From Flavobacterium sp. CYK-55 (GTDB lineage Bacteria; Bacteroidota; Bacteroidia; Flavobacteriales; Flavobacteriaceae): 64,000 nt of DNA. The DNA lies in the NCBI RefSeq assembly GCF_018413465.1, contig NZ_JAHCDK010000002.1, positions 391,185-455,184 on the forward strand, in the 5' to 3' direction. Positions 3,618 to 63,806 of the stretch are shown one piece after another. Within the stretch, counting starts at the first letter, position 1, and every line of letters begins with the position of its first letter. A program made the translations under genes and the position numbers. A model generated the notes under the pieces. It was given only the letters and a program-made list of their open reading frames with translations. It was not told where the DNA came from and searched no databases.

Positions 3618-5642
3618 ATGCAAATACTTACCCAACGTTTCACGACACCACACAATACGGCACCGTTTAGCCAAATCAAACTCGAAGATTATCAACCGGC
3701 TTTTGAGGCCAACATCGCCGCCGCCCGCGCCGAGATTGACGCCATCATCAGTAATCCCGCAGCGCCCACTTTTGAAAACACCATTGAAGCTTTGGAATGC
3801 TCCGGGCAAGCGCTTGATCGGTTATCATCGATTTTCTTCAACTTAAATTCAGCCCAAACCAACGAAACCATGCAAAAAATAGCGCAAGAAGTTTCACCCT
3901 TGCTCACGGCTTTTGGCAACGATATTGCGCTCAACGAAGATTTGTTCAAACGCGTCAAAACGGTCTACGAGCAGCGCGATCAGCTGAATCTTACCGCCGA
4001 ACAAAGTATGTTGCTCGAGAAAAAATTCAAAGGTTTTAGCCGCAACGGAGCTTTGCTCTCTGAAGATAAAAAAGAGCGTTTGCGCGAAATTGACACCGAA
4101 CTCGCCAAACTCAAACTCACCTTTGGCGAAAATGTCTTGGCCGAAACCAATGACTATCAGTTGCACATTACCAACGAGGGTGAATTATCAGGTTTGCCCG
4201 AAGGCGCTAAAGAAGCTGCGGCTGCACTGGCACAATCTAAAAACCTTGAAGGTTGGTTGTTTACGCTAGATTTTCCGAGTTATATGCCGGTGGTTACCTA
4301 TGCCGACAACCGAGCTTTGCGTCGTGAAATTGCTTTGGCTTATGGCAAAAAAGCATTCCAAAACAACCCATACAACAACACACAAAACATTCAAAAAATA
4401 GTAGCGCTGCGTCATGAACGCGCACAATTGTTGGGCTACGAATCACATGCGCATTTTGTACTTGAAGAACGTATGGCGCAAAACCCCGAGCGCGTAAAAA
4501 CCTTTTTAGAAGAGTTACTGCAAAAAGCCAAACCGGCTTCTGAGCGCGAATTTGCACAGCTGAGCGCTTTTGCAAAAAAATTAGATGGCATTGAACAACT
4601 CGAAAAATGGGATGGCGCTTATTATTCTGAAAAACTCAAACAAAAATTATTCAGCTTAGACGATGAATTGCTCAAGCCGTATTTTAAACTCGAAAATGTT
4701 TTAAATGGAGCGTTCACGGTAGCTGAAAAACTCTTTGGCATTACTTTTCACGAAGTATCCAACATTGAGAAATACCATCCGGAAGTGCAAACCTATGAAG
4801 TGCGCGATTTTGAGCAGGAACTCGTGGCTATTTTTTATGCCGATTTCTTTCCGCGCAAAGGCAAACGCCCGGGCGCTTGGATGACTTCGTTTAAATCGCA
4901 ATCTATTCAGAATGGCATCAACGAACGTCCGCATGTATCGATTGTGTGCAACTTTACCCCGCCAACACCATCCAAACCATCGTTGTTGACTTTTAATGAA
5001 GTGACAACTTTATTCCACGAATTTGGTCACGCACTACACGGCATGCTCGCCAATACAGTATATCCGAGTTTATCGGGTACTTCAGTATATTGGGATTTTG
5101 TGGAACTCCCAAGCCAAGTCATGGAAAACTGGTGTTACGAGCCCGAAGCTTTGGCTTTGTTTGCGCATCACTACCAAAGTGGCGAAGTAATTCCGCAAGA
5201 ATACGTGAACAAAATCAAAGAAAGCGCGAGCTTTTTAGAAGGTATGGCTACTGTGCGTCAACTGAGTTTTGGTTTGCTCGATATGGCCTATCACACGCAG
5301 GCAACCGAAATCAAAGACGTCAAAGCTTTTGAAGTGGCAGCTACCGAGCGCACCGCTTTGTATCCGGATGTGACGGAAAATTGTTTGAGCGTGTCGTTTT
5401 CGCATATTTTTCAGGGCGGATATTCATCGGGCTATTACAGCTACAAATGGGCCGAAGTTTTGGATGCCGATGCTTTTGAGTTCTTTCAAGAAAACGGAAT
5501 TTTCAACAAAGAAATTGCCGAGCGTTTCAAAGAAAATGTTTTGTCAAAAGGCGGAACCGAATTACCGATGGAACTCTACAAACGCTTTCGCGGACAAGAA
5601 CCCAAACCGGAAGCTTTGCTCAGACGCGCGGGTTTGTTGTAA
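3618..5642 (+). CDS. M3-family oligopeptidase (Dcp/PrlC-like)
   Basis: Zinc metallopeptidase cleaving short peptides. The start ATG 3618 (MQILTQRF) is preferred because the upstream in-frame stretch reads through the hairpin repeat; this gives 674 residues, normal for the family. The zinc motif HEFGHALHG begins at residue 467, in the context TLFHEFGHALHG typical of thimet/oligopeptidase A enzymes. The N-terminal half is helical. There is no signal peptide, so it is probably cytoplasmic (peptidyl-dipeptidase Dcp-like or oligopeptidase A-like; I cannot separate these). It is convergent with the T9SS cargo gene at 5659-7008, only 16 bases between the two stops. Confidence 0.93.
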   Translation: MQILTQRFTTPHNTAPFSQIKLEDYQPAFEANIAAARAEIDAIISNPAAPTFENTIEALECSGQALDRLSSIFFNLNSAQTNETMQKIAQEVSPLLTAFGNDIALNEDLFKRVKTVYEQRDQLNLTAEQSMLLEKKFKGFSRNGALLSEDKKERLREIDTELAKLKLTFGENVLAETNDYQLHITNEGELSGLPEGAKEAAAALAQSKNLEGWLFTLDFPSYMPVVTYADNRALRREIALAYGKKAFQNNPYNNTQNIQKIVALRHERAQLLGYESHAHFVLEERMAQNPERVKTFLEELLQKAKPASEREFAQLSAFAKKLDGIEQLEKWDGAYYSEKLKQKLFSLDDELLKPYFKLENVLNGAFTVAEKLFGITFHEVSNIEKYHPEVQTYEVRDFEQELVAIFYADFFPRKGKRPGAWMTSFKSQSIQNGINERPHVSIVCNFTPPTPSKPSLLTFNEVTTLFHEFGHALHGMLANTVYPSLSGTSVYWDFVELPSQVMENWCYEPEALALFAHHYQSGEVIPQEYVNKIKESASFLEGMATVRQLSFGLLDMAYHTQATEIKDVKAFEVAATERTALYPDVTENCLSVSFSHIFQGGYSSGYYSYKWAEVLDADAFEFFQENGIFNKEIAERFKENVLSKGGTELPMELYKRFRGQEPKPEALLRRAGLL

Positions 5643-59898: not shown

Positions 59899-60027
59899 GG
59901 GCGTGCCGGCTCGTCAATGATTTGCTTTCCTGAAAGTTTACACGCTCGCCGTCGGGCTGTGCGCTTTATCTCTCCGCTACGCTACGAGGATATCGCTGCT
60001 GCCTGCCGGCAGGCAGGTCCCTCACGC
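59899..60027 (-). repeat. Dispersed repeat family B, copy 4 (inverted)
   Basis: Read on the minus strand it starts GCGTGAGGGA, contains CAGCGATATCC, AGCGGAGAGA, CAGCCCGACGGCGAGCG and ends GGCACGCCC. It holds an 18-bp perfect palindrome CTGCCTGCCGGCAGGCAG at 59999-60016. The GGGCGT end is adjacent to the M1 peptidase stop. Confidence 0.75.
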
Positions 60028-60104
60028 TATTTAATCTAACATCTCAAGCTAGTTTAAAGTTTTTTCAGACGCATTGATACTTAACTCAAAATAAAAGCTA
60101 TTAA

Positions 60105-61307
60105 CTATATTGTCTTTATCTTTTTTTTTAATACAAATTTTGCAATTCCACCGCTCAAATAAACTTGGTTCCACCACCAACCACTCAAATTTTTGAAAAG
60201 CATTTTCTTTCTTAATCGATAAGTCTTATAGTGTTTCATAATTCCCAAATAGGAATTCATGCTACTTAAAAATTGCTTTTGGTCATCACTACTAGGCTTA
60301 GTATTTTGAACAACCTCATTTTGTTTCATAATAGCTGTATAAAAATTCCCCTTTGTTCGATTACTGATGAAAATGCGATTGGGCTTGATAAATGTTCCCA
60401 AAAACTTAACCCCTTTACTGTAATGCTGAAAATATATTTTCTTTGGGTGTAAAGTTAGTTGTAATTTTGTTTTAAGAAAATTGGTAATTATTGGTAATAA
60501 TGATTTTAGATATTCTTTATCTTGATGCACAATTACAAAATCATCAACATAACGACCATAAAACTCAATATCTAGTTCTTTTTTGACATAATGGTCAAAA
60601 ATGTTCATATAAAAATTAGCAAAAACTTGACTGGTTAAATTTCCTATTGGCAAACCAAAATTTAATGGACTGTAAAATAAGCTTTTGCTATTAGGCAATC
60701 CAATCCAATTGCTTTTATTGCCTTTGATGATACAATTTTTTGTTGGGTCATTAAAAATAATTTTGCTGCATAAAAAAAGAACCAGTTCTCTGTCTGGTTC
60801 GTGATATTTTTTATTGATAAAGTCGAATAGCCTTTCATAAAGAATGCTTCTATTGATATTCATAAAAAATCCTTGAATGTCTAACTTCAAAATAAAACAA
60901 TCTTGTTTGTAGTTATTTGAACAAGACTTAATAAAACCATCGACTCTTTTTATACCAAAATGAGTTCCTTTTCCTATTCTACATGCATAACTATCTTGTA
61001 TAAATACATCCTCAAAAATAGGATTGAGCTTGTTGATTAGAAAATGATGCACCACTCGGTCTCTAAAATCAGCAGCGAAGATTTCTCTTTTTACAGGTTT
61101 GTTTACTATAAAGGCTATGGATTTGCCTGGAAAATAGGTTTTTGTTTTGATTTGCTCTATAAGTACAAATAAGTTGTGCTCTAAATGTTTTTCAAAACGA
61201 AGTGCATTAAGTGTGTTCCGTTTATTTTTTCTACAAGCATAATAAGCCAAAAAGACTTCTTCGGCTAAGGATAGTGGTACTGTATCAGAAAAAAGTTCTA
61301 ATTGCAT
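60105..61307 (-). CDS. DGR reverse transcriptase
   Basis: 400 residues. Copies the template-repeat RNA into adenine-mutated cDNA. RT landmarks: KREIFAADFRDRVVHHFL near residues 73-90, catalytic motif A LDIQGFF (142-148), the DGR-specific motif GLPIGNLTSQ (218-227; other RTs have a QGxxxSP-like sequence) and YVDD (253-256). The last ~80 residues are basic, with GWWWNQVYLSGG. It lies 48 bases from the TR and is transcribed in the same direction as the variable protein. A/T content is higher than in neighbouring housekeeping genes. Group II intron or retron RTs are excluded by the SQ motif and the adjacent TR/VR pair. Confidence 0.97.
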   Translation of the reverse strand: MQLELFSDTVPLSLAEEVFLAYYACRKNKRNTLNALRFEKHLEHNLFVLIEQIKTKTYFPGKSIAFIVNKPVKREIFAADFRDRVVHHFLINKLNPIFEDVFIQDSYACRIGKGTHFGIKRVDGFIKSCSNNYKQDCFILKLDIQGFFMNINRSILYERLFDFINKKYHEPDRELVLFLCSKIIFNDPTKNCIIKGNKSNWIGLPNSKSLFYSPLNFGLPIGNLTSQVFANFYMNIFDHYVKKELDIEFYGRYVDDFVIVHQDKEYLKSLLPIITNFLKTKLQLTLHPKKIYFQHYSKGVKFLGTFIKPNRIFISNRTKGNFYTAIMKQNEVVQNTKPSSDDQKQFLSSMNSYLGIMKHYKTYRLRKKMLFKNLSGWWWNQVYLSGGIAKFVLKKKIKTI

Positions 61308-61320
61308 ACTATAAACAATA

Positions 61321-61343
61321 AACCTCCGATTTTATCGGAGGTT
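61321..61343 (-). ncRNA. Hairpin between TR and reverse transcriptase
   Basis: AACCTCCGAT-aaa-ATCGGAGGTT (10-bp stem), 11 bases past the TR 3' end and 14 bases before the RT start. It may protect or shape the TR RNA, or hamper RT translation; it lacks a following T run. Confidence 0.6.
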
Positions 61344-61354
61344 GTTTCCTATTG

Positions 61355-61546
61355 AATCCCTGAGGCAACGCACCGAGAAACCGTTTTTCTTATTATTGTT
61401 GTTTCTGTTTGCATTGCTGTTGTTATAATTCAGGTTGCGGTTCCAAGCGTTTGTTGTTGAGTACTCTGACGAACTCCACCAGTTACCGTTGTTGCCAATG
61501 TTGTTGAATGTTCCATTGTTGTTACGATAACCTCCCGGAAGACCCG
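61355..61546 (-). repeat. DGR template repeat (TR)
   Basis: 192 bp aligned without gaps to VR (62092-62283). On the coding strand it is rich in AAC/AAT codons: 21 Asn when read in the VP frame. All 30 differences from VR are at TR adenines, against none at the 123 non-adenine positions (about 69 adenines, hand-counted). The apparent 76-codon frame across it is template sequence, not a gene. Confidence 0.96.
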
Positions 61547-61676
61547 ACGCTGAAGTAACCACTATTGTTTTAGCTACACCAAACCTTACTATTAAAGGTA
61601 TTTACTAATGCAGCGGGTTACCGGATTTAATTTGATCTCTTCTGTTTGCCGTAACATTCAGAACGCTGTCTGGAAA
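61547..61676 (-). other. DGR spacer between Avd and TR
   Basis: 130 bases of AT-rich leader of the template RNA. Just before TR the frame reads TIVVTSAS, unlike VP, so the match to VR starts abruptly at the GLPGG codons. No gene seen. Confidence 0.6.
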
Positions 61677-62018
61677 CTATTGAGTTGATTTGTGCCAACC
61701 TGTGAGTTGTTTTGATACATCTTCTACCTTAGAATTGATGTTTACAAAATTTTTAATGCTTATTTGATGTAAATCTTTCATTAAGCGTATTAATAGACGA
61801 ATCACTTCTATTCGTTCTTTGGCTTCTTCTAGCACTTTTCCTTTATCATGCCTTGAATTTACTCTATAAATAAGGATTAACAAATCTATAGTTTCTTTTT
61901 TCAAGCTCTCCCCCACTGTATATTTATACTCTTTACTAAAGCTTTTGGTAAATTCAAAAATTCCTAAAAGCAAGTCATAGGTACTTTTATAAACTGGTAA
62001 ATCAGAATATAATTTCAT
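61677..62018 (-). CDS. avd: DGR accessory variability determinant (bAvd-like)
   Basis: 113 residues, all-helical: the segments VYKSTYDLLLGIFEFTKSF, GESLKKETIDLLILIYRVNS, VLEEAKERIEVIRLLIRLMKDL and NINSKVEDVSKQLTGWHKS fit a four-helix bundle. This is the bAvd/23S-IVP-like family, a positively charged scaffold that binds the RT and the TR RNA in DGRs. Position between VR and TR supports the call. Its start is directly preceded by the VP-terminator-like hairpin, so its translation could be coupled to readthrough. Confidence 0.88.
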   Translation of the reverse strand: MKLYSDLPVYKSTYDLLLGIFEFTKSFSKEYKYTVGESLKKETIDLLILIYRVNSRHDKGKVLEEAKERIEVIRLLIRLMKDLHQISIKNFVNINSKVEDVSKQLTGWHKSTQ

Positions 62019-62024
62019 TTTTTC

Positions 62025-62048
62025 AAAAAAAAGGGGCTTACGCCCCTT
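62025..62048 (-). terminator. GNRA-loop hairpin/terminator downstream of VR
   Basis: AAGGGGC-gtaa-GCCCCTT (7-bp stem, GTAA loop) followed by TTTTTTT on the minus strand; 43 bases past the VR end and 7 before the Avd start. It looks like an intrinsic terminator. DGR target recognition also uses a stem-loop 3' of VR, so both roles are possible. Confidence 0.7.
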
Positions 62049-62089
62049 ATCAATTTTTCAAAGAGTCAAAGAGTCAAAGGGCAAAAGGG

Positions 62090-62773
62090 CTAATCCCTGA
62101 GGCAACGCACCGAGAAACCGTAAATCTTATTAGTGTAGCCTCTGCCTGCACTGCTGTAGTAATAATTCAGGCCGCGGCCCCAAGCGTTCGTCGTAGAGTA
62201 CTCTGACGAACTCCACCAGGTACCGTCGTAGCCAATGCTGAAGAATGTTCCACCGTCGTAACGAAAACCTCCCGGAAGACCCGTAAAACCACTGCTGTTG
62301 GTATTTGTAATACCGGGATAAGTAGCCCATCCTGTTGTGGCTTTCATTTTGTTTCCTGCTAATGCTTCGCCGCCTAAAAAGGTGGTTAAAGTTGTCCACT
62401 CGGCATCGCTGGGCACATGGTAACCCGTTGGTGCTAAACCACGGGGGTCGTTTACGGCATACCAATTGTATAATTTGCCATAAACAATCCCATTTGCAGT
62501 ATTGTTTTGATAATAACACCATGCACCACTCGTAAGGTTTGTCCATTGTGACGGATCCTGTACTTGTGGAATTATATCTCCATTCTTGTAACGACTCACA
62601 TTTAAGTTTTTAGTCATCCAGATTTGGTTGCCGATTTGAACTTCTGCGGCCTGAACCGGTACTGAAGGTCTGGAAGCTGGCTGTGTTTGAGATTTATTAT
62701 CTTCTTGCTGTGAACAAGAAATCACTACGATAACTAAACAGAAGATTAAGGTTGCTGAGAAGTAGTTTTTCAT
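62090..62773 (-). CDS. DGR variable protein: TIGR02145-type (Fib_succ_major) lipoprotein
   Basis: 227 residues from ATG 62773 (MKNYFSATLIF); a TTG upstream would add five residues. Lipobox VVISC places the lipidated Cys at residue 20, then an acidic QQEDNK spacer. The domain is the Fibrobacter-succinogenes-major-paralogous type: VQIGNQIWMTKNLNVSRYKNG, YGKLYNWYAVN, GYHVPSDAEWTTL, and the C-terminal WWSSSEYSTTNAW...GFSVRCLRD. Residues ~164-227 are encoded by VR; 20 of them differ from TR. Such folds resemble C-type lectins and display variable loops. Surface exposure is inferred. Confidence 0.95.
   Translation of the reverse strand: MKNYFSATLIFCLVIVVISCSQQEDNKSQTQPASRPSVPVQAAEVQIGNQIWMTKNLNVSRYKNGDIIPQVQDPSQWTNLTSGAWCYYQNNTANGIVYGKLYNWYAVNDPRGLAPTGYHVPSDAEWTTLTTFLGGEALAGNKMKATTGWATYPGITNTNSSGFTGLPGGFRYDGGTFFSIGYDGTWWSSSEYSTTNAWGRGLNYYYSSAGRGYTNKIYGFSVRCLRD
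62092..62283 (-). repeat. DGR variable repeat (VR)
   Basis: Encodes the last ~64 codons of the variable protein and ends two bases before its stop codon is complete. 162 of 192 positions equal TR. The 3' 29 bases are identical and hold only two adenines, serving as the initiation-of-mutagenic-homology region. 30 substitutions, 27 of them amino-acid changing and 3 silent (Ser-Thr-Thr codons). Confidence 0.96.
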
Positions 62774-62844
62774 GGCTTGTTTTTTCAAATATAAAAAGAA
62801 AACTACTAAATTGATTGTTGTTGATAATTTTATACAATCATCCT

Positions 62845-63689: not shown

Positions 63690-63699
63690 CTCTAAAAGA

Positions 63700-63806
<107 letters not shown>

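Follow-up and report, generated by a model that had tools for sequence, protein, structure and literature searches.

A chromosomal diversity-generating retroelement of Flavobacterium with a predicted lipoprotein target and an RT-7-like RNA directly 5′ of its template repeat

What does the compact minus-strand cassette near the end of a 64,000-nucleotide stretch of Flavobacterium sp. CYK-55 (contig NZ_JAHCDK010000002.1; the whole stretch is called the window here) do to the gene beside it, and how is its template RNA built? The cassette, at 60105-62788, is a complete diversity-generating retroelement (DGR) in which a target lipoprotein gene, avd, a template repeat (TR) and a reverse transcriptase (RT) gene follow one another within 2.7 kb, with all open reading frames (ORFs) open and the RT motifs intact. 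Every coordinate that the initial annotation, made from the letters alone, had assigned to target, avd, TR, RT and variable repeat (VR) agrees with the sequence; what goes beyond it is the RNA leader between avd and the TR, the rRNA-operon setting and a second genome. The target gene (62090..62773, with its ATG at 62773 and its stop codon ending at 62090) encodes a predicted lipoprotein with a C-terminal FISUMP (Fib_succ_major) domain, and the VR (62092..62283) takes the place characteristic of a DGR, the 3′ end of the target gene, its last base being the first base of the stop codon. Comparison of this VR with the TR (61355..61546) gives 30 mismatches over 192 bp, and all 30 fall at TR adenines (A>G 16, A>T 12, A>C 2); with 69 adenines in the TR, the chance of such a placement is p = 3e-16. 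We hold with considerable confidence that the locus is a chromosomal DGR, whose RT and Avd are predicted to copy the 192-base TR RNA with errors at adenines and with these copies to rewrite the 3′ end of a gene for a predicted surface lipoprotein.

The initial annotation spoke of a complete DGR with a lipoprotein target, and the family models bear this out as the repeat pair does. The RT (60105..61307, 400 aa) carries the DGR-type motif GLPIGNLTSQ that had been claimed for it, together with YVDD, and matches RVT_1 at E 5.5e-21. The accessory protein encoded by avd (61677..62018, 113 aa) scores 57 bits against a cut-off of 40 for Pfam bAvd, and 57.9 bits, under the cut-off of 80, for the NCBIfam Avd model; an Avd is frequent but not universal in DGRs. 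The target matches Fib_succ_major and TIGR02145 with 158.9 and 105.1 bits, both above cut-off, and its N-terminus shows a signal peptide and a lipobox, VVISC, followed by SQQED. A motif of this kind after the lipobox cysteine can mark surface export in this phylum. A first structure model of the target was poor (pLDDT 65) and was replaced.

The solved structure closest to the RT is 8ub7, “Reverse transcriptase” (4e-31), which we take to be the BPP-1 enzyme, bRT; a maturase follows at 4e-9. Assignment to the group II intron RTs (TIGR04416, 104.5 bits against a cut-off of 300) or to the retron RTs (St85 model, 53.3 bits against 235) was rejected. Related loci were picked by RT similarity alone, 9 from genome contigs (besides L014) and the best 80 of 587 viral contigs, giving 89, and their TRs were located by an adenine-tolerant self-comparison in which pairs with <70% of mismatches at A were rejected; by that criterion 74 of the 89 carry an A-specific repeat pair. 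A grouping with group II introns or retrons, which the initial annotation had named as grounds for giving up its reading, is therefore not what was found. Four RT proteins (P0004, P0005, P0017, P0107) have an extra Fib_succ_major stretch of N-terminal size, and two others (P0015, P0120) have PF07603; perhaps the TR is read in frame into the RT there. One contig (L015) holds two related RTs and two avd matches, with the TR 3 kb upstream of the second RT. In a Gracilibacteria metagenome-assembled genome (MAG), L017, the RT relative, at 57% identity, has 2 in-frame stops under table 11, and the TR/VR pair has 15 of its 15 mismatches at A. The Gracilibacteria lineage reads TGA as an amino acid.

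Between avd and the TR lies an RNA (61547..61671, minus strand), recognised by covariation and by a match to the Rfam family RT-7 (RF03028) at 61670-61548 (56.8 bits, E 1e-12), which ends 1 nt before the TR. Since the score is under the gathering threshold, the leader is called RT-7-like. Covariation on six leaders gives two minus-strand helices, P1 (61663-61659 with 61644-61640) and P2 (61621-61616 with 61560-61555), the latter 8 nt before the TR. In the six-leader alignment 92.4% of cells at the 11 pairs of the two helices are paired, against 64.7% after shuffling (0 of 500 as high) and 38-50% when the alignment is slid, and 10 of the 11 pairs have changes on both sides, in a structure read from the same six sequences, which favours that structure. 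An 11-row alignment fitted to the structure is 95.8% paired against 62.6% shuffled, with 10 double-change pairs, a number also reached by 36 of 500 shuffles.

An Rfam run on 49 loci with related RTs, the window included (for 29 of the 39 without a match, at gathering level only), found RT-7 in the window, L015, L018, L019, L020 and L116, and RT-15 (RF03018) in L132, L155, L163 and L187; L116 (132.4 bits, RT-7) and the four RT-15 matches are above gathering score. An RT-n RNA as a feature of every related locus was rejected, being present in only 10 of the 49. Where both RNA and TR were located, the match ends at most 7 nt from the TR, in nine loci of nine (RNA end/TR start: window 61548/61546, L015 1985/1990, L018 4737/4738, L019 1362/1356, L116 2144/2140, L132 1322/1321, L155 3877/3876, L163 3861/3861, L187 3888/3886; L132 and L155 resemble near copies). 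In L020 there is no TR/VR pair; a target-like stretch starts at 4726 and the RNA ends at 4741. A scan of the phylum for RT-7 was positive in 2 of 345 genomes, the window's own and G569, where the copy stands beside avd and RT. When 93 sources were searched with a covariance model built from the six leaders, 17 matches at E<=0.01 were returned. Beyond the six and the L014 copy, new matches in L148, L117, L118 and L153 end at most 8 nt from the TR; that in L112 ends near a TR edge later shifted upstream to about 3776, and five (L111, L016, a partial one in L019, L166, and L186 on the other strand) do not fit or could not be judged. From TR end to RT start the median is 39 nt (n=73 related loci; 47 nt in the window), and from avd stop to TR start 168 nt (n=31), distances for which start codons were set by rule and some of which are negative.

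Because the RNA ends so close to the TR in all nine loci, both RT-7 and RT-15 look like leaders of DGR template RNAs, and the RT-7-like RNA of the window likely belongs to the copying machinery. A printed link of these families to DGRs was not found, and their source paper (Weinberg 2017) may already make it; the accessible text of one paper with an RT-n name speaks of the RT-3 structure only (PMC7657543). The leader could instead stand apart from the template RNA, as a regulatory RNA in its own right or as an attenuator for the RT gene: RT-7 is typed “Gene; sRNA” in Rfam, and a terminator-like hairpin lies between TR and RT, where the stem search places a 10-bp hairpin (61321..61343, minus strand) within the 47-nt spacer. 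Yet it is to the TR start that the leader's 3′ end keeps its distance, while the distance from TR to RT ranges to about 1 kb (L019), and we consider an independent RNA unlikely, if deserving of attention.

A second hairpin stands behind the VR (62031..62048, minus strand; AAGGGGC-GTAA-GCCCCTT, then a T run), 43 bp away, as a candidate homing hairpin and/or terminator. The stem search found a post-VR hairpin in the window, L016, L018 and L019 and none in L015, L017 and L023, while L022 has only an A+T-rich stem farther off; it was rejected as a shared feature, and since it is not common to the relatives, it stays a candidate.

The activity of the DGR can be judged from a second Flavobacterium genome, a pond MAG (G309, JAIXSK010000016.1), in which an RT scan of GTDB contigs revealed the same element in the same place. 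The TR is identical in both genomes. Across the 1,987 bp of the block 62091-60105, which leaves out the VR, 5 positions mismatch: 3 in avd, of which 1 changes the protein, and 2 in the RT gene, both of which do; the TR and the three gaps have none. The full near-identical block, 59999..62467, differs outside the VR by 7 substitutions and an indel of 3 nt over 2,277 positions, and its edges are sharp, one within the target gene at 62467 and one behind the RT at 59999. Around it the two genomes are at 86.3% identity in the neighbouring peptidase gene, 76% over 108 aligned bases in the 5′ part of the target, and 85.8% over 56,974 aligned bases for the window as a whole. Segments of 1,987 bp reach 99.8% over the element; the 956 scorable segments (at least 90% aligned) that end before 60,000 reach at most 95.1%, with a median of 86.0%. 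That the silent sites are near-identical too favours a recent common origin of the block.

Against this background the VRs of the two genomes differ at 37 sites, 36 of them at TR adenines, and the density of differences in the VR relative to the rest of the block corresponds to an odds ratio of 95 (p = 2e-35). The initial annotation had made its reading depend on VR diversity, and here it is: with identical TRs the VRs are different, the second departing from its TR by 30 changes, 29 at A. The TR adenines changed in both VRs, only in the window, only in the second genome and in neither number 16, 14, 13 and 26 (Fisher p = 0.14), and 7 of the 16 changed in both have the same base. Of the 10 third-position adenines in the TR, 4 are changed in the window VR and 5 in the other, and either VR has three silent codon changes; rewriting at third positions points to copying errors, not selection of residues. 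The search for further VR copies that had been proposed returned, with the TR as DNA query at E<=0.001, only the TR and this single VR in the source genome, and likewise the TR and one VR in the second genome. Multiple VRs were rejected as a possibility on this search; FISUMP paralogs exist in the genome, yet none matches the TR. The comparison reads as a natural test of DGR activity and as a sign of recent module exchange: the module and the target tip were likely exchanged between Flavobacterium lineages, and the VRs rewritten since.

The DGR might also be frozen, once active and then deprived of homing, with old VRs kept in both lineages. A DGR remnant and fossil-like VRs do exist in the genus (see below), and leftover VRs without an RT occur in Treponema denticola as well (available text of PMC4891356). 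However, the rewriting of the VR fell within the time of only 5 substitutions in the remaining 1,987 bp, and neither an ORF nor an RT motif is broken; we regard a frozen element as quite improbable.

Several observations weigh against the reading of the locus as a DGR with a leader of this kind. The RT-7 score of 56.8 bits is below the Rfam gathering score of 116.8, the folding energy of the leader is unremarkable (z -0.61) and was dropped as evidence, the matches are weak in two of the five relatives (L019, E 5e-5; L018, E 0.002), and in 39 of the 49 related loci Rfam gave no RT-n match. Phage DGRs have a GRNA loop 4-34 bp from the VR in the portion of PMC3240598 at hand, and both the GTAA loop and the 43-bp distance of the window are outside these ranges. 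One of the 30 changes of the second VR sits at a G. The phylogenetic placement stood in part: the RT tree puts the window RT inside a well supported 6-row set of close relatives, compared by RT sequence, but it does not cleanly separate DGR from other RTs (the DGR label changes 3 times on the tree, a clean split appears in 0 of 200 bootstrap trees, and long branches meet). Lastly, a mixed contig is possible, the second genome being a MAG and that of the window an assembly in 53 contigs; that assembly joined a single DGR stretch to two genomes and so produced the near-identity is nonetheless very improbable, for even though both sequences are assemblies and the second contig starts inside the target gene at a stretch common to that genome's contig C18, the block sits on contigs of 455 and 457 kb with gene order alike, differs by the 5 substitutions outside the VR, and has distinct VRs and flanks.

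If the DGR reading is right, RT and Avd would copy the TR RNA with errors at adenines, and the error-bearing copies would be written into the 3′ end of the target gene. The template RNA would comprise leader, TR and the short spacer 3′ of the TR. The TR edge 8 nt from helix P2 is where the enzyme arrives last, and the helix might halt it there or aid docking, so that in this branch docking and/or termination would have passed to the 5′ leader; the hairpin behind the VR may mark the homing site. The tip, putatively lectin-like, would sit outside the cell and bind varying partners. Homologous exchange, with one of its crossovers in the target gene, is the likely route by which module and target tip passed between Flavobacterium lineages. 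A bolder scheme, which we offer tentatively and at somewhat short of even chances, is that the template RNA is reversed relative to that of BPP-1: the folded 5′ leader (RT-7/RT-15), not a long 3′ spacer, would organise the copying complex, P2 would end the cDNA at the TR edge, RT-7 and RT-15 would be pieces of template RNA, and DGR modules would travel from one Flavobacterium species to another, with homologous exchange running through the target gene and fossil VRs left in their wake.

BPP-1 (bRT, Avd, mtd) is alike in its RT (8ub7 being the best match in the Protein Data Bank), in Avd, in the A-specific TR/VR pair, in a TR between avd and RT (PMC12875486, text in part) and in a hairpin behind the VR (PMC3240598, likewise). 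As far as the excerpt of PMC12875486 describes it, the 5′ flank of its TR is avd coding sequence, a folded 3′ spacer primes cDNA synthesis, which a motif in avd brings to an end. BPP-1 thus differs in that the folded RNA is 3′ of the TR, whereas here a covarying RNA is 5′ of it; it also differs from the window in host and target, a bacterium and a predicted lipoprotein here. The TR-RT spacer of BPP-1 is long. A long folded 3′ spacer of that type was not found in the window, where it spans the 47 nt, although the RNA could extend into the RT gene. Reportedly, Arambula and others described in 2013 a Legionella pneumophila DGR with a surface lipoprotein. The L. pneumophila DGR, in the partial text of PMC4891356, is likewise chromosomal with a lipoprotein target and has related DGRs among isolates; it lies in a genomic island, whereas the exchange at the window looks like homologous replacement at one locus. 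The same source reports VR differences among isolates of T. denticola. FISUMP-domain and lipoprotein targets are already published (PMC4159848 and PMC8143477, in the sections available): the Fib_succ_major/DUF1566 targets of gut metagenomes and Bacteroides phages carry the VR in a C-terminal FISUMP domain, and one is a predicted lipoprotein, whereas the window target is on a Flavobacterium chromosome and is one of a family of rRNA-linked lipoproteins that have a leader in common. Cellular aquatic DGRs of Bacteroidetes are also on record (PMC8144416, partial text). As for RT-7 and RT-15, whose matches lie directly 5′ of TRs, the Rfam entry states no role and the TR link is drawn here, with the window copy under the RT-7 threshold.

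By the two-genome comparison the element is a good new member of the DGRs, and by its 5′ leader a variant. With one TR, one VR and a near-identical sister in another lineage, it offers a clean natural test of the rate and sites of DGR rewriting outside phages and the gut. Should RT-7 and RT-15 be template leaders, two RNA families would gain a role, DGR templates could be found by covariance model, and cDNA start and stop would become testable in a layout unlike that of BPP-1.

Traces of DGRs elsewhere in the genus are of two kinds. One is decay: genome G372 (L050, G372:C270) has a FISUMP gene with a VR-like tip, avd residues 1-51 at 96% and, where stop codons interrupt the sequence, RT residues 310-375, with no TR seen in this 67% complete genome at a contig end; in G019 a FISUMP gene is broken and avd is represented by residues 1-55. 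The other is a codon footprint. Of 27 FISUMP genes first aligned, a duplicate, a G309 gene and the remnant in G372 were dropped, and 8 that are rRNA-linked were counted separately. The other 16, from 13 congeners in which this RT has no match at E<=0.001, were aligned to the TR peptide and scored at the positions of TR asparagine codons (AAY). There, codons for residues with a free third base end in C or T in 108 of 115 cases; the rest of the region gives 263 of 451 (odds ratio 11, p = 4e-15), and the sequence upstream of it 571 of 1,116. This is the expected trace of A-to-N rewriting of AAY codons, and the 16 genes carry this footprint of past DGR editing in genomes 77-99% complete, where an RT may be missing from an assembly. 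Such fossil VRs would mean that cells retain useful DGR products once the machinery is lost. The footprint genomes include G016, G002, G398, G150 and G349. In the 8 rRNA-linked genes the footprint is weak (48/71 against 43/84, p = 0.049), and they were rejected as DGR products.

The element sits between an rRNA operon, with a 5S rRNA gene at 63698..63806 (minus strand) upstream of the target, and a peptidase gene, the avd-TR-RT part being placed between the target's stop codon and the latter. A prophage setting was rejected from these flanks and from several congeners in which the peptidase gene adjoins rRNA or FISUMP genes without avd or RT; no further phage-gene search was made. Among 398 Flavobacterium genomes an RT match at E<=1e-20 occurs only in the window's and in G309. 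The source genome has one other assembled 5S gene, on contig C3, and behind it too comes a FISUMP lipoprotein gene, with a nearly alike leader; in congener G123 a FISUMP gene lies at most 2 kb behind 2 of 3 5S genes, in G016 behind 0 of 2, and 11 genomes of one or two contigs gave no FISUMP match. At the peptidase locus of 13 other congeners a FISUMP gene is adjacent in 5, and no avd or RT was seen in the stretches examined, some of which end <300 bases off at a contig end. Since rRNA- and peptidase-linked FISUMP genes occur in congeners without avd or RT, the rRNA-linked FISUMP gene probably predates the DGR at this locus.

FISUMP lipoprotein genes behind rRNA operons were noted at the ends of G000:C2 and C3 (L048), at the starts of G309:C9, C18 and C26, and in G123:C7 and C39; the three G309 contigs begin inside or just before such genes. 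Those of the source genome have the upstream stretch and leader in common and different tips. Flavo-1 RNA (RF01705) matches lie near FISUMP and peptidase genes in L048, L067, L094, L095, L098, L101 and L105; a similar stretch behind the window's RT (about 60025-59899) has no Rfam match. Between the 5S gene and the target, at 63160-63040, the window has repeated TTTGTCACA/TGTGACAAA inverted-repeat units, and similar units precede the FISUMP gene on contig C3 (L048).

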